Shown here: positions 32,390 to 40,670 of the stretch, in pieces
Layout: each line of letters begins with the position of its first letter
Numbering within the stretch: position 1 is the stretch's first letter
Assembly (NCBI RefSeq): GCF_021648825.1
Contig: NZ_JAKJHS010000001.1
Coordinates: 620,001-684,000, forward strand
Length of the DNA: 64,000 nucleotides
Source of the DNA: Rhizobium halophilum
GTDB lineage: Bacteria > Pseudomonadota > Alphaproteobacteria > Rhizobiales > Rhizobiaceae
Reading direction: 5' to 3'
Translations under genes and position numbers: made by a program
The notes under the pieces: generated by a model
Told to the model about the DNA's origin: nothing
Databases searched by the model: none
What the model saw: only the letters and a program-made list of their open reading frames with translations

Positions 32390-33886
32390 ATGGCCGACAA
32401 ACAGAACGAAACCGCCCTCTCCTCCGACGCCACGGAAGTCCGGGCCCAGAAGCTGAAGCTCCTGCGCGAAAAGATCGGCGACGTCTATCCGGCGCATTTC
32501 CATCGGACGATGACGAATGCCGAGCTCGCCGAGAAGTACAAGAACCTCGAAGCGGACGTCGAGACGCAGGACGTGGTGACGGTTGCCGGCCGCGTCTACT
32601 CCTCGCGCAACTCCGGCATGTTTATCGACCTGCGCGACGCCTCAGGCAAGATCCAGATCTTCAGCCACAAGGACACGACGCCCGAAGAAGCCCGGGACAT
32701 GCTGCCGATGATCGATCTTGGTGACATTATCGGCGTCACAGGTGTCGTGCGCCGCACCAAGCGCGGCGAACTGACGATCAATGCGCAAGAAATCACGATG
32801 CTAACCAAGACGCTCCTGCCGATGCCGGAGAAGTATCACGGTCTTTCCGACATCGAGCTGCGCTACCGCAAGCGTCACCTCGACATCCTGACCAACGAGG
32901 AATCCAAGCTCCGCTTCCAGCAACGCTCGCGCATCGTGTCGGGCATCCGCCGCTTCATGGAAGATGACGGCTTCATGGAAGTCGAGACGCCGATGCTGCA
33001 GACCGTTTACGGCGGCGCTTCGGCTGATCCGTTCAAGACCCATCACAACACGCTGAAGATGGACATGTACCTGCGCATTGCGCCAGAACTGTTCCTCAAG
33101 CGCACGCTGGTCTCCGGCCTTTCGGACAAGGTCTTCGAGATCAATCGCAACTTCCGCAACGAAGGCGTTTCTACCCGGCACAATCCTGAATTCACGATGA
33201 TGGAGTGCTACTGGGCCTATGCCGATTACGAGGACATCATGGACCTCGTCGAGCGCCTGTTCGCGCGCCTGGCGATGACCATCCATGGCTCCACGGAGTT
33301 CAAGTACGGCGACACGGAGATCTCCTTCAAGGGCCCGTTCCGCCGCGTTCCCATGCCCGACGCCGTCAAGGAAGTCACCGGCATCGACTTCCTCGCGATC
33401 AAGACCGACGAAGAGGCGCGCGCCGCCGCCAAGGCCGCCGGTTTCGAGGTCGAGAAGGATTGGACCTGGGGGGAGTGTCTTGCCTTCATCTTCGAGGAAA
33501 AGGTCGAGGCGACGCTGATCCAGCCGTCCCACGTCACCCATTTCCCGAAGGATATTTCGCCCTTTGCCAAGGAAGTGCCAGGAGAGCCGCGCCTCGTTGA
33601 GCGCTTCGAGACCTATTGCAACACCTGGGAAATCGGCAACGCCTTCTCCGAATTGAACGATCCGGAAGAGCAGCGCGCCCGCATGGTCGAGCAGCTTGAA
33701 CAGGCGCATGCGCGTGGCGAGAAGGACAAGCAGCTCGACGAGGAATTCCTCGATGCGATCGACCAGGGTATGCCGCCCGCCGGCGGCCTCGGCATCGGTG
33801 TCGACCGCCTAATCATGCTGCTAACCGACGCGCCCTCCATCCGCGACGTGATCCTCTTCCCCGCCCGCCGCAACAAGGCGGACTGA
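32390..33886 (+). CDS. lysS: Lysyl-tRNA synthetase, class II
   Basis: 498 residues: N-terminal OB-fold anticodon domain (about 60-155, VTVAGRVYSSRNSGMFIDLRD) and class II core with motif 2 FEINRNFRNEGVSTRHNPEFT and motif 3 GLGIGVDRLIMLLTD. Forms a two-gene operon with gltX and ends before a hairpin terminator. The class II form, rather than the class I LysK of some alphaproteobacteria, is noteworthy but not rare. Confidence 0.95.
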   Translation: MADKQNETALSSDATEVRAQKLKLLREKIGDVYPAHFHRTMTNAELAEKYKNLEADVETQDVVTVAGRVYSSRNSGMFIDLRDASGKIQIFSHKDTTPEEARDMLPMIDLGDIIGVTGVVRRTKRGELTINAQEITMLTKTLLPMPEKYHGLSDIELRYRKRHLDILTNEESKLRFQQRSRIVSGIRRFMEDDGFMEVETPMLQTVYGGASADPFKTHHNTLKMDMYLRIAPELFLKRTLVSGLSDKVFEINRNFRNEGVSTRHNPEFTMMECYWAYADYEDIMDLVERLFARLAMTIHGSTEFKYGDTEISFKGPFRRVPMPDAVKEVTGIDFLAIKTDEEARAAAKAAGFEVEKDWTWGECLAFIFEEKVEATLIQPSHVTHFPKDISPFAKEVPGEPRLVERFETYCNTWEIGNAFSELNDPEEQRARMVEQLEQAHARGEKDKQLDEEFLDAIDQGMPPAGGLGIGVDRLIMLLTDAPSIRDVILFPARRNKAD

Positions 33887-35536: not shown

Positions 35537-37003
35537 TCAATGCGTTTCCGCATGGGCCTCGGGCCTACGGCGGTGCTGCTCGGGATCGTCCTCTTCGGCA
35601 ACGGCGGGCGCGTGGGCTGGTTCTGCCTGGGCTGGCTCCGCATGAGCGGGCTTCGCATGGGCGGCTGCGACGCCATGGGCCTCTTCTGCCTTCGCTTCCT
35701 CGCCGCTACGGCTGGAGTCCGCGCTCGTTTCAGTGTCATCTTTCAGCTTCAGCGGCTGGGCGCGCATCTTGGCGAGCCAGGCGGCGCCATGATCATCGGC
35801 CTTCGTCTCGGCGGCCGGAGCAGGAGTGGCGTCCTCAGTTGCATGGGGCGGCCCGACGATATCGGGCTGCTCAGCCGCGTCAGCAGCATGTTCGGGCGCT
35901 TTGGATTCCTTAGCCTGGTGCTCGCTGGATCCGAGACCGACATAGCCCTTGACGGTATCAAGCCAGCCTTTGTCCGCCGGAGCTGCTTCTGCGGCATCGG
36001 CGGCCTTTTCCTGCGCCGCATGCGGCTCAGCCGAGGCATGTTGTGCCGGCTCTGCCGCTGCTCCGTGTGCAGGCTCCAAGGGTTCGTCCCCCGGCGGTTC
36101 GTGACCGGCGGATGCGGTGTCGCCGTGACCGTCGGCAGCCGGCTCGGCACCAAGCCCCACCATACCCATCAATGAAGCCAACATCCCAGGCTTTTCTTCA
36201 CCGCCGTGCTTGGCGACCGGGACCTCTTCGCCATGACCTTCGGCGGGCGTGCCGTGGCCGTCAGCCGCGGGTTCGCTTCCATGAGCGCCCCCGCCATGGG
36301 CATCACCGTGTGCCTTCTCTTCCCCGTCGCTGACAGTTTCTCCGTGACCTGATGGTGCATGATGGCCCTTCTCGGAACCATGACCCTTGTCTGCACCGTG
36401 GCCGCCCGAAGAACCGTGACCGTCTGCGCCTTCAACCACCGGCTCGAGGCAATCGGCAGTATCAGTCAATGCGGCCGACAGGTGCTCGGCATCTTCCTGC
36501 GGCAGATCGATCCGCAGGCCCCAGAACGCGCCGGTATCGTCCGGCATGCCGTCGACGTAATAGGCAGTCAGCGGCTGGACCGAAAGGCCCTCCGGTGCCT
36601 TGCTGACATCCGGCATATAGACCACCTGGGCACCGATCGCGCGACCGCGCATCTTCGCCCGATCCGTTGGCCCCGCCTTGTCGAGCACGGTCACCTGGAC
36701 AAGGTCCGAATGCTCCGCCTCCTGCACCTTGCGGGCAACGCGCAACGCAGTCTTCAGGCGTGCGACGCCATCGCCCGGCTCATTGGTGGTGACGTATTTG
36801 CGGATCCAGTAGCGGTCCGCCTTCTTGATCTTGATCGTTTCGAGGGTGGTGCATTCCAGGCCGTTGATGTCCGCGTAGGACGGGCCGAGCAGCTTGTCGG
36901 CGCCGATGTAGACTGCAGCCGCGCCGCTGCCGCCGCCGAGCACCGTCACACCGCCGATGATGAGGAGAAATGTCCGCGACAGCCGGATCTTGAAACCCTT
37001 CAC
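35537..37003 (-). CDS. His-rich, membrane-anchored protein divergent from sitABCD
   Basis: 488 residues. A short basic N-terminus and one membrane helix (about 10-35, TFLLIIGGVTVLGG) are followed by a compact domain (about 40-200, two cysteines) and a roughly 290-residue low-complexity tail rich in His, Ala, Gly and Glu. The tail holds about 28 histidines, many as GHG or AH repeats, and two similar short amphipathic segments ending GLG (MLASLMGMVGLG and WLDTVKGYVGLG). I recognise no family. GTG at 37003 is chosen because GGAG lies eight bases upstream; GTG at 37036 has none. Its position opposite a Mn/Zn importer suggests metal binding, but this is inference. Confidence 0.7.
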   Translation of the reverse strand: MKGFKIRLSRTFLLIIGGVTVLGGGSGAAAVYIGADKLLGPSYADINGLECTTLETIKIKKADRYWIRKYVTTNEPGDGVARLKTALRVARKVQEAEHSDLVQVTVLDKAGPTDRAKMRGRAIGAQVVYMPDVSKAPEGLSVQPLTAYYVDGMPDDTGAFWGLRIDLPQEDAEHLSAALTDTADCLEPVVEGADGHGSSGGHGADKGHGSEKGHHAPSGHGETVSDGEEKAHGDAHGGGAHGSEPAADGHGTPAEGHGEEVPVAKHGGEEKPGMLASLMGMVGLGAEPAADGHGDTASAGHEPPGDEPLEPAHGAAAEPAQHASAEPHAAQEKAADAAEAAPADKGWLDTVKGYVGLGSSEHQAKESKAPEHAADAAEQPDIVGPPHATEDATPAPAAETKADDHGAAWLAKMRAQPLKLKDDTETSADSSRSGEEAKAEEAHGVAAAHAKPAHAEPAQAEPAHAPAVAEEDDPEQHRRRPEAHAETH

Positions 37004-37115
37004 GCGCCGAACTCCGACATGCCAACCCCACTTCACGCAATACCGATGGAATTCGGAACGGAGCTTCCCTCAATCGTCTTTAGAAACATTTAAGAGAGCT
37101 TACTGCACCCATTTC

Positions 37116-37130
37116 TGCGAATGATTTGCA
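37116..37130. promoter_or_regulatory. Mur/Fur-like box, upstream
   Basis: TGCGAATGATTTGCA is a 15-bp palindrome with one mismatched pair, in the gap between the His-rich gene and sitA. The TGCAAAT/ATTTGCA halves resemble rhizobial Mur-responsive sites. Confidence 0.5.
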
Positions 37131-37136
37131 ATAGCG

Positions 37137-37167: not shown

Positions 37168-37184
37168 TTGCAAATGAATTGCAA
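37168..37184. promoter_or_regulatory. Mur/Fur-like box over the sit transcription start
   Basis: TTGCAAATGAATTGCAA is a 17-bp palindrome with one mismatched pair. It resembles the manganese-responsive elements bound by the Fur homologue Mur at sitABCD in rhizobia. Confidence 0.6.
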
Positions 37185-37200
37185 GAAGGATCGTCACTCC

Positions 37201-38094
37201 GTGCCACGCCTCTCTAAGCTGATCATCATCGCCGGTGCACTTCTCTACGCTCTGCCCGCTGCCAGCTGGGCACAAGAGAAGCCAAAGGTCGTCACCACCT
37301 TCACGGTGATCGCCGACATGGCCCGCAATGTTGCAGGCGACGCCGCCGAGGTGGAGAGCATCACCAAGCCGGGCGCCGAGATCCACAACTACCAGCCCAC
37401 CCCCCGCGACCTATTGCGCGCCCGCGACGCTGACCTGGTGCTGCGCAACGGTCTGAACCTCGAGCTGTGGTTCGAGAAGTTCCTTGCCAATCTCGGCGAC
37501 GTGCCGAGCGTGACGGTTTCGGACGGCGTCGAGCCAGTGGCAATTGCGGGGGGCGCCTATGAGGGCAAGCCCAATCCTCATGCCTGGATGTCACCGGACA
37601 ACGCGATCATCTACGTTGACAACATTCGCAAGGGACTGACGGAGATCGATCCAGAGAATGCGGCCGTCTACGAAGCCAATGCCAAGGCCTATACCGACAA
37701 GATCCGTGCCGCAGTCGACCCCATCCGCGCAGAACTTGGTGCGCTGCCGGAAGAGAAGCGCTGGCTCGTGACGAGCGAGGGTGCCTTCTCCTATCTCGCT
37801 CGTGATTTCAGCCTCAAGGAGCTCTATCTCTGGCCCGTCAACGCCGACAGCCAGGGAACCCCGCAGCAGGTCCGCTCCGTCATCGACGCGATGAACGAGC
37901 ACGACATCGAGGTGATCTTCAGCGAAAGCACGGTCTCTCCCGACCCGGCCGAACAGGTGGCACGCGAAACCGGTGCGCGTTACGGCGGCATTCTTTTCGT
38001 CGACTCGCTGAGCGATGCCGACGGCCCGGTGCCGACATATCTTGACCTCTTGCGCGTCACCGCCAGCAGGATTGCCGAAGGTCTTGCCGGATGA
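37201..38094 (+). CDS. sitA: Manganese/zinc ABC transporter substrate-binding protein
   Basis: 297 residues, cluster A-I metal-binding protein. Signal peptide 1-24 (ending SWA). The four expected metal ligands are present: His62 (IHNYQPTP), His127 (NPHAWM), Glu193 (SEGAFSY) and Asp268 (FVDSLS). Two His, one Glu and one Asp is the manganese-type set, as opposed to the three-His zinc ZnuA set, and there is no His-rich loop. Start GTG at 37201 with AAGGA ten bases upstream; the ATG at 37174 lies inside the Mur-like box. Its stop overlaps sitB. Confidence 0.93.
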
Positions 38095-38981
38095 TCATGG
38101 GCAAGAAGCGGCCACAGGAAGGCGGTCTCGTCGTCGACGATATCACGGTGGCCTACCGAAGCGGATTGACGGCTCTGCGCCACGCGAGCTTCTCAGTCCC
38201 GCGGGGGACGATCACCGCACTCGTCGGCGTCAACGGCGCCGGCAAGTCGACACTCTTCAAGGCGATCATGGGTTTCGTCCCGCTTGCCGAAGGAACCGTG
38301 CAGATCCTGGGAATGCCGGCGCGCGAGGCACTGAAGAAGAATCTTGTCGCCTATGTTCCGCAGTCCGAGGAAGTGGACTGGAACTTCCCGGTCCTTGTCG
38401 AGGACGTGGTGATGATGGGCCGCTACGGCCACATGAACTTCCTACGCATTCCCTCCCGCCGCGACCACGACATGGTGACCGAGGCGCTGAAGCGGGTGAA
38501 CATGGAGGAGGTCCGCAAGCGGCAGATCGGCGAGCTTTCCGGCGGCCAGCGCAAGCGGGTGTTCCTGGCGCGCGCGCTGGCGCAGGAAGGCCAGGTCATC
38601 CTGCTCGACGAGCCCTTCACCGGGGTTGACGTGACCACCGAGGAACAGATCATCGCGCTTCTGCGCAGCCTGCGGGACGAAGGGCGGGTGATGCTGGTCT
38701 CGACCCATAATCTCGGCAGCGTACCGGACTTCTGCGACCGCACCGTCTTCGTCAAGGGGACCGTGCTCGCCCATGGCAGGACCGAAGACACCTTCAACGA
38801 ACAGAACCTGGAGATGGCCTTCGGCGGCGTGCTGCGCCATTTCATTCTGGGCGGGCCCGAGCTGCACGACGATGAAGACGCACGCCATGTCCGCGTTATC
38901 ACCGACGACGAGCGGCCTTACGTGACCTATGGCAACGGCGCACAGAAGAAGGAAACGGTCGGTGCTCCAGACGCTTCTTGA
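38091..38981 (+). CDS. sitB: Manganese/zinc ABC transporter ATP-binding protein
   Basis: 296 residues, single ABC domain: Walker [10 protein letters not shown] (46-54), signature LSGGQRKR, Walker [13 protein letters not shown] and H-loop VSTHNLG. ATGA overlap with sitA. The C-terminal extension beyond residue 235 ([26 protein letters not shown]) is acidic and His-containing and is typical of the rhizobial SitB. Confidence 0.94.
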
Positions 38982-39822
38982 GCCCTTCACCTACGACTAT
39001 ATGCTGAACGCGATCTGGGTGAGCGCGCTGGTCGGCGGCGTCTGCGGCTTCCTGTCAGCTTATCTGATGCTGAAGGGCTGGTCGCTGATCGGCGACGCGC
39101 TCTCCCATTCGATCGTGCCGGGCGTTGCCGGCGCCTATATGCTCGGTCTGCCCTTCGCCCTCGGCGCCTTCATCTCCGGCGGGCTTGCGGCCGGTGCAAT
39201 GCTGTTCCTCAATCAGCGCACCCGGCTGAAGGAGGACGCCATCATCGGGCTGATCTTCACCTCCTTCTTCGGTCTGGGGCTCTTCATGGTGTCTCTGTCG
39301 CCGACCTCGGTGAACATCCAGACCATCGTGCTCGGCAACATCCTCGCCATCACGCCGGAAGACACACTGCAGCTGGTTATCATCGGCGGCGTCAGCCTCG
39401 CCATCCTTGCCGCCAAGTGGAAGGATCTGATGGTCGCCTTCTTCGACGAGAACCACGCCCGGTCGATTGGGCTGAAGCCGGATCGCCTGAAGGTGCTGTT
39501 CTTCACGCTGCTTGCCGCGTCCACGGTTGCCGCACTGCAGACGGTCGGCGCCTTTCTGGTGATCGCCATGGTCGTGACGCCAGGTGCCACCGGCTATCTG
39601 CTGACGGACCGTTTCCAGCGGGTGATTCTGCTTGGTCTCGTTATCGGTGCCGGAACGAGCTTCGTCGGCGCCTATCTCAGCTATTACCTTGATGGCGCAA
39701 CCGGCGGCATCATCGTTGTGCTGCAGACACTGATCTTCCTGCTTGCCTTCGTCTTCGCGCCGAAGCACGGGATGTTGGCTTCCCGGCGGCGCCTGCGGCA
39801 GAACCTTGAGGAAACGGCATGA
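38962..39822 (+). CDS. sitC: Manganese/zinc ABC transporter permease
   Basis: 286 residues, about eight membrane helices, ABC-3 permease family. [22 protein letters not shown] matches the first conserved block. The GTG at 38962 is preferred (AAGGA eight bases upstream, matching the family N-terminus); the ATG at 38929 would give 297 residues. Overlaps sitB by 20 bp. Confidence 0.92.
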
Positions 39823-40670
39823 GCGGTTTTCTCGATTTCGTCGATCTCGCGACGTTCCCCTTCCAGATCGACTTCATGCAGCGCGCCTTCATCGTGACGC
39901 AGTTGATCGCGATCCCGATGGCGATCCTCTCCTGCTTCCTCGTGCTGAAGGGCTGGTCGCTGATGGGGGACGCGGTATCCCACGCGGTGTTTCCTGGCAT
40001 CGTGCTGGCCTATATCTTTTCGATCCCGCTGGCGATCGGTGCCTTCGCCGCTGGCATGTTCTGCGCCGTGGCGACCGGGTTTCTACAGGAAAACAGCCGG
40101 ATTAAGGAGGATACGGTGCTCGGCATCGTCTTTTCCGGCATGTTCGGCTTGGGGCTGGTGCTCTACGTCCAGGTGCAGAGCGACGTCCATCTCGACCACA
40201 TCCTGTTCGGAGACATGCTTGGCATCATGCCGCGCGACCTGATCGAGACGGGGTTGATCGCTCTCTTCGCGACCCTCTTCCTGGTCGTCCGGCGCAAGGA
40301 TCTGCTGGTACAGTCCTTCGACGAACAACACGCCAAGGCGATCGGCTTGCCGACGCGGTTGCTGCATTACGGCCTGCTGACGGTGCTGTCGCTGACGGTG
40401 GTGGGCGCGCTGAAGGCCGTCGGCATCATCCTGTCGGTGGCGATGGTGGTGGCGCCCGGCGCCATCGCCTTCCTTCTCACCCGCCGCTTCGGTCCAATGC
40501 TGCTGGTCGCCGTCGCCATCGCGGCGGGGAGCTCGCTCCTCGGCATCTACATCAGCTTCTTTCTCGACAGTGCGCCGGCGCCCACCATCGTGCTTCTGAT
40601 GACGGCGCTCTTCATCTTCGCATTCGTCAAGACGATGCTGGAAAACCGCGGGAAGCCGGCCGCAACGTGA
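39819..40670 (+). CDS. sitD: Manganese/zinc ABC transporter permease
   Basis: 283 residues, second ABC-3 permease, paralogous to SitC with the matching block FLVLKGWSLMGDAVSHAVFPG. ATGA overlap with sitC. The four sit genes form one translationally coupled operon that imports Mn(II), probably controlled by Mur boxes upstream of sitA. Confidence 0.93.
   Translation: MSGFLDFVDLATFPFQIDFMQRAFIVTQLIAIPMAILSCFLVLKGWSLMGDAVSHAVFPGIVLAYIFSIPLAIGAFAAGMFCAVATGFLQENSRIKEDTVLGIVFSGMFGLGLVLYVQVQSDVHLDHILFGDMLGIMPRDLIETGLIALFATLFLVVRRKDLLVQSFDEQHAKAIGLPTRLLHYGLLTVLSLTVVGALKAVGIILSVAMVVAPGAIAFLLTRRFGPMLLVAVAIAAGSSLLGIYISFFLDSAPAPTIVLLMTALFIFAFVKTMLENRGKPAAT

Follow-up and report, generated by a model that had tools for sequence, protein, structure and literature searches.

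A gene next to the manganese importer operon sitABCD in Rhizobium halophilum encodes a real, uncharacterised and lineage-wide protein with a peculiar, His-rich tail. We propose that it is an exported envelope protein whose disordered docking tail would serve as a flexible tether, and that the gene belongs to the lysS locus, with the manganese importer a separable neighbour, a joint reading to which we give a probability of about 0.45. In the tail, which otherwise varies freely, a C-terminal His and short hydrophobic motifs are conserved, an unusual combination. All coordinates are those of the window, the whole 64,000-nucleotide stretch of DNA analysed here.

The protein and its compact domain

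35537..37003 (−): gene of the His-tailed membrane protein; open reading frame with a GTG start, 488 aa, stop included
36899..37003 (−): K/R-rich N-terminal start and hydrophobic segment, residues 1–35, assigned by reading the sequence
36449..36886 (−): compact DUF4875-like domain, residues 40–185, with C51 and C185; from alignment, structure model and fold search
35540..36448 (−): Ala/Glu/Gly/His/Pro-rich tail, residues 186–488, with 28 His, His being the last residue; predicted disordered

An upstream in-frame GTG at 37036 is also listed for the 488-aa reading frame, and we place the start at 37003 because the onset of the conserved part and an overlapping mini-ORF (described below) favour it. 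The initial annotation had described one membrane helix followed by a tail of roughly 290 residues with about 28 His, and both features were borne out: a single hydrophobic segment, read from the sequence at approximately residues 10–35, follows the K/R-rich start and could be either a retained anchor or a cleaved signal peptide, and the tail comprises 303 residues with 28 His (9.2%), including 7 GHG and 5 AHG. By comparison, His accounts for 474 of the 18,258 residues (2.6%) in the other long open reading frames picked in the window (48 in all; binomial P = 1 × 10−8 for the excess in the tail), the His-richest 300-residue stretch of which holds 21 His. The tail also carries 59 Asp/Glu, and residues 40–185 contain 2 His. 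C51 and C185, the only Cys of the protein, occupy invariant columns in a 64-sequence alignment, and the pair would fit a possible extracytoplasmic disulfide.

The absence of a recognisable family for residues 40–200, also reported in the initial annotation, stood at the level of sequence families, with no match in NCBIfam and no Pfam family near significance (best E value 0.6; DUF4875 unmatched), but not at the level of fold, which places the domain near DUF4875, a domain of unknown function. Modelling with AlphaFold2 (64 sequences), as the initial annotation had suggested, gave a confident structure for residues 41–180 (mostly pLDDT >90), for which the best solved match was 4lg3_C (Z = 12.7 over 124 residues, 2.9 Å, 11% identity), followed by an entry with Z = 7.0. 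The compact domain thus shares the fold of 4lg3, which is Desulfovibrio piger DESPIG_00776 and whose entry title reads ‘DUF487 family’, presumably meaning DUF4875 (PF16175). The DUF4875 model weakly matched 9 of 41 relatives at E values up to 1 (best 5.4 × 10−5), and two members above its cut-off (L211 and L212) likewise start, judged by eye, with a hydrophobic stretch, although they lack the long tail. At the curated Pfam cut-off of 25 bits, neither the window protein nor its own genome gave a match; in DUF4875 searches, 2 of 240 genomes of the class and 3 of 299 genomes of the phylum matched, none of the latter above the cut-off, and the sole Rhizobiaceae genome listed in the phylum-wide search scored 20.7 bits, below the curated 25. 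An hhalign comparison of the compact domain with a two-sequence DUF4875 profile was not significant (probability 1.3%), an hmmsearch of the homologue domain profile against PDB sequences did not recover 4lg3, a PHROGs search gave no match and no paper found in the open literature names DUF4875. Because the window protein matches no family and the profile comparison with the two members failed, we call the compact domain DUF4875-like rather than a DUF4875 member. Fold matches to cation-transporter C-terminal domains (Z ≤4.8) were too weak for metal binding to be read from them.

The gene is present in all 57 genomes searched of the genus and in 66 of the 247 sampled genomes of the family Rhizobiaceae (26 of 109 genera), and in a sample of the order the domain profile matched 3 of 249 genomes, each a member of that same family. 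For comparative analyses, we collected 148 loci, comprising 60 from genomes, 8 from plasmid records and 80 named loci (80 kept of 184 confirmed), with some genomes represented twice; removal of 17 (identical domains, incomplete ends or no second Cys) left 131 distinct complete homologues. The closest named record among the kept loci was from Pseudorhizobium tarimense (96% over the domain).

Conservation and variation of the tail

36152..36187 (−): hydrophobic motif 1, residues 273–284, GMLASLMGMVGL, from the tail motif pattern
35933..35968 (−): hydrophobic motif 2, residues 346–357, GWLDTVKGYVGL, from the tail motif pattern
35756..35788 (−): motif 3, residues 406–416, GAAWLAKMRAQ, from tail motif and structure prediction

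Structure prediction left the tail mostly at pLDDT <50, consistent with predicted disorder. Among the 131 homologues, tails range from 10 to 390 aa (median 231; 39 of the 131 below 100 aa) and from 0 to 40 His (at most one in 16), and none contains Cys. The number of His is therefore not conserved, a check that the initial annotation had called for, whereas the terminal one is largely kept: His is the last residue in 99 of the 131 homologues, including 28 of the 39 short tails, encoded by CAC in 52 and CAT in 47, while His occurs at each of positions −2 to −5 in 1–3 of 131 and at position −6 in 24. Of the 92 tails of at least 100 aa, 83 contain a hydrophobic motif of 12 residues resembling GWLDTVKGYVGL or GFLSSITGMIFG (twice in 53), as scored with a pattern fitted to those same tails (56 of 92 in its first version, 83 of 92 once widened); in 200 rounds of shuffling, the widened pattern appeared in a mean of 1.3 (maximum 6) of the 92 tails. 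The motif is present even in tails with 0 and 3 His (L112 and L113) and was not found by the pattern in 9 of the 92. A third motif, WLxKxR, occurs in 54 of the 92 long tails, and a short helix is predicted, at low confidence, at residues 405–414 of the window copy. The 32 homologues that do not end in His include an SLR/TLR group, His-poor distant relatives and plasmid copies, and the terminal His changes at least 15 times on the LysRS tree (120 rows). In five loci (L083, L185, L186, L189 and L206), the C terminus is of an LPKGISLR type with an SLR or TLR end, the named members of this group being Agrobacterium vitis and Allorhizobium. Although the motif and terminal-His tallies are raw counts over homologues, relatedness ignored, parts of the tail (the terminal His with both codons, and the hydrophobic motifs) look selected.

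Ten records were found in a plasmid collection: five paralogues on plasmids of 85–211 kb that also carry metal genes (from Rhizobium sp. Khangiran2, WL3 and X9, Pseudorhizobium flavum YW14 and Agrobacterium pusense SX41) and five copies on replicons of 3.5–4.6 Mb, including that of Sinorhizobium meliloti Ak57, which adjoins lysS. The plasmid paralogues show 34–40% identity over all or part of the domain, but their tails are of 12–15 residues with at most one His (measured in three, L122–L124). In four of the five records, an Nramp-family or ‘divalent metal cation transporter’ gene lies 0.3–1.6 kb from the paralogue; the fifth has no divalent-metal transporter annotated. The paralogues (L122–L126) are short-tailed or fragmentary and sit in heavy-metal islands of plasmids. 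Genes for a divalent-metal transporter, PCu(A)C, a P-type ATPase, an L,D-transpeptidase and a cell-wall hydrolase, together with lspA and lnt, occur around them in varying combinations; envelope-building genes here accompany metal genes. The plasmid-borne and S. meliloti relatives are annotated merely as hypothetical.

The alternative that survives best, although we think it unlikely, is that the tail acts as a general periplasmic metal buffer or pH-responsive element independent of SitABCD, in the manner of SilE or the His-rich loops of PA4063. A His-rich stretch predicted to be disordered, as in periplasmic metal-binding proteins, is what the window protein has, its 28 His being accompanied by 59 Asp/Glu; the lack of Cys in all 131 tails, the conserved C-terminal His and the paralogues in heavy-metal islands are consistent with such a role, but a range of 0–40 His, with 16 of 131 tails holding at most one, and hydrophobic motifs that persist in the His-less and 3-His tails argue against it. 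As described in the passages available, ZrgA of Vibrio cholerae and PA4063 of Pseudomonas aeruginosa are periplasmic zinc proteins (PMC9820375 and PMC8561739), similar to the window protein in being (here by inference) extracytoplasmic, in having a His-rich flexible stretch and, in this lineage, in adjoining metal uptake genes; the window protein differs in having no conserved transporter neighbour and no metal-type box where sit is absent, and the likeness is one of description, common descent not being supported. SilE, also compared by its description in the passages available, is a disordered periplasmic silver-binding protein (PMC5008109) and resembles the tail as a disordered chain rich in potential metal ligands, whereas the window tail is preceded by a folded domain and a membrane segment. 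His-rich regions in the passages available of PMC12183173 are those of binding proteins. On the present data, the tail of the window protein may or may not bind metal.

The lysS locus and the upstream region

32390..33886 (+): LysRS gene, a near-constant convergent neighbour across the family
37168..40670 (+): sitABCD, the divergent neighbour here; SitA present in 71 of 131 distinct homologous loci
37115–37131 (−): Mur-type box 1, TTGCAAATCATTCGCAG, found by matrix; goes with sit across relatives
37168–37184 (−): Mur-type box 2, TTGCAATTCATTTGCAA, found by matrix; goes with sit across relatives
37078..37093 (−): element conserved in the promoter region, TTAAATGTTTCTAAAG, approximately 90 bases upstream; conserved form TTAAAGCTTCCTCAAG
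37000..37020 (−): six-codon mini-ORF with its stop, a TGA that overlaps the GTG start; window copy read by eye

The most constant neighbour of the gene is lysS. For 121 of the 131 distinct homologues the fetched stretch includes LysRS, which in 120 is convergent and no more than 5.6 kb away; the ten others include three plasmid copies (L122–L124) and at least two shortened stretches (L119 and L175). All 66 gene-bearing genomes of the family sample fall among the 71 of 247 with LysRS at E ≤1 × 10−150, the remaining five having LysRS but not the gene (G093, G100, G136, G215 and G275). With this LysRS in only 71 of the 247 genomes, the rest of the family presumably uses another lysyl-tRNA synthetase, and the gene and LysRS may co-occur simply through common descent of a single locus.

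The importer, encoded here by a divergent operon in which SitA is a ZnuA-family binding protein and SitB matches a Mn/Fe ABC ATPase model, is a far less regular companion. The initial annotation had suggested that the protein might be a donor to, or negative partner of, this importer, a role that was not supported: no SitA lies beside the gene in 60 of the 131 distinct loci, and among the 66 gene-bearing genomes SitA is beside the gene in 24, is encoded but was not seen beside it in 22 (on another contig or far away in 18, with no place listed in G102, G170, G194 and G257) and is absent at E ≤1 × 10−90 in 20. For three of the four without a listed place (G102, G170 and G257), the fetched 18-kb stretch contained no SitA; the place and locus of G194 were unseen. 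At the same threshold, SitA was about equally frequent in genomes with the gene (46 of 66) and without it (116 of 181). Neither the conserved neighbourhood nor the co-occurrence expected of a SitABCD accessory protein was thus observed.

Adjacency to sit requires at least 17 changes on a LysRS tree of 120 loci, and the SitA sequences of 70 adjacent loci form one side of a branch (SH-aLRT 98) relative to 20 SitA from elsewhere (L219–L238; 15 drawn from the 22 genomes that bear the gene but have SitA elsewhere, plus 5 from genomes without the gene, picked by hand), both trees being quick ones built without a mixture model, with the root not known. The simplest history would be that the sit operon joined the locus once and was then repeatedly lost while the gene stayed, although transfer may be an alternative. 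Two sit types seem to replace each other in the Rhizobiaceae, the adjacent SitA being a clade of their own. No metal gene appeared to take the place of sit in the sit-less loci, where the upstream reading frames vary, though individual loci may still have one. Judged from their translations, the closest frames resemble, depending on the locus, a methyltransferase, a LysR regulator, a nucleoside hydrolase, an EamA-type transporter, a chemoreceptor, an ABC exporter or transaldolase, and several of the listed frames are probably spurious.

As the initial annotation had noted, divergent sitABCD faces the gene across a region with metal-type boxes, of which we found two (TTGCAAATCATTCGCAG and TTGCAATTCATTTGCAA), taken by us to be of the Mur/MRS type. 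Because box 2 extends over the initial codons of the longest sitA frame, the true sitA start probably lies further in, for example at GTG 37201. Of the 71 sit-adjacent loci, 66 have a Mur-type box ahead of the gene, a count that leans towards these loci as the matrix was built from them, and none of the 60 sit-less loci has one (22 of 80 and 0 of 68, respectively, with a first, cruder pattern), leaving the gene without a box of its own where sit is absent; the boxes appear to go with the importer and not with the His-tailed gene.

A different upstream element follows the gene itself. In 121 of the 131 loci (70 of 71 with sit and 51 of 60 without), the 230 bases preceding the gene contain the form TTAANNNTTNNNNAA, at positions −80 to −105 in 117 of the 121, relative to 16 of 1,310 random stretches of the same loci. 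The commonest form in the genus, TTAAANNTTCYTCAA, matched 61 times across 57 genomes; 51 of these sites lie directly upstream of the gene (51 genomes) and 10 elsewhere, as compared with 13 for the control with the pattern reversed. The window site TTAAATGTTTCTAAAG deviates from it and is the only match of a looser pattern in its own genome (reversed control, 4). The element is thus near single-copy per genome and tied to the His-tailed gene. The motif of CtrA, TTAA-N7-TTAA, fits half of this TTAA..TT....AA element. Two other candidate regulators were rejected on the motifs given in the passages available: CenR of S. meliloti (AGTCAC-N6-GTGACT; PMC9561847) and ChvI, neither of whose motifs fits (N-GCC-N8-GCC in S. 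meliloti and TTGC-N3-GCAA in Caulobacter; PMC9731502); the BvrR motif is given there as a figure only (PMC9491525). Downstream of the element, a mini-ORF whose TGA overlaps the start codon is present in 100 of the 131 loci (six codons in 96), with a ribosome-binding-like motif before it in 56 of the 100 and inside it in 89. The window copy contains GGAG, which could serve the main gene, and the overlap suggests translational coupling.

That the tail captures periplasmic Mn (or Zn or Fe) and either delivers it to SitA or keeps it back from SitA seems improbable to us in view of the full set of loci. The divergent arrangement in 71 of 131 loci with intervening boxes in most, the terminal His and the transporters near four plasmid paralogues would be expected of such a partner, as would the His-richer tails of sit-adjacent loci when relatedness is ignored (median 7.3% (68 tails) versus 4.7% (51), P = 1 × 10−5). 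Across 10 independent pairs, however, the trend was absent or opposite and not significant (His ≥10 agreed with sit in an average of 0.3 pairs and opposed it in 3.5); six sit-adjacent homologues hold 0–3 His (L072, L073, L086, L088, L101 and L120), the measured plasmid tails are all but His-free, and the gene persists in genomes without SitA and in loci without a box. Because the gene tracks lysS, the boxes track sit and the number of His does not follow sit in independent pairs, a dedicated partnership with SitABCD is argued against; the first description of the protein was accurate, and its proposed tie to the importer draws mostly on how the genes are arranged in one lineage. Among the matches listed in the open literature, no title reported a His-rich protein with sitABCD in rhizobia, and no paper joining Mur, sitABCD, MRS, Agrobacterium and manganese was found there.

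A candidate envelope tether

From the computed features (the domain model, predicted disorder, motifs, terminal His, and linkage and promoter patterns), we infer export and topology, docking and a tether function. The protein would be exported and probably anchored in the inner membrane of the Rhizobiaceae envelope, with the DUF4875-like domain outside the membrane and the long, disordered, acidic and His-rich tail extending away from it. The tail may then act as a flexible tether, in which one or two of the 12-residue hydrophobic motifs and the C-terminal His would dock on a partner (another envelope protein, the cell wall or a membrane), leaving the intervening linkers free to vary in length and in number of His; these His may be pH-responsive or loose ligands of divalent metal and would not be the conserved core. 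The gene would be read from its own promoter element. The family can do without a long tether, as our pattern does not find the motif in 9 of the 92 long tails and 39 of the 131 tails are shorter than 100 aa, and the 32 of 131 homologues without a terminal His count against tethering. The view that the His reflect compositional drift in a functionless Ala/Gly/Pro/Glu linker, with the folded domain alone mattering, accommodates the wide spread in tail length and His number and the common short tails, but is doubtful given the hydrophobic motifs and the terminal His retained with both codons even in 28 of 39 short tails (relatedness ignored in both). More speculatively, and with little expectation that all of it holds, the tether reading could be extended to a new kind of envelope tether, in which an inner-membrane DUF4875-like domain casts a periplasmic line with the hydrophobic motifs and C-terminal His as hooks, metal or pH switches the hook, and the promoter element and coupled six-codon mini-ORF tune the dose.

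Together, these results caution that function should not be read from one shared divergent region, as the metal-type boxes here track the importer. In addition, a deletion and truncation study of this envelope protein candidate of the Rhizobiaceae would find specific handles in its private promoter element, its conserved C-terminal His and its hydrophobic motifs.
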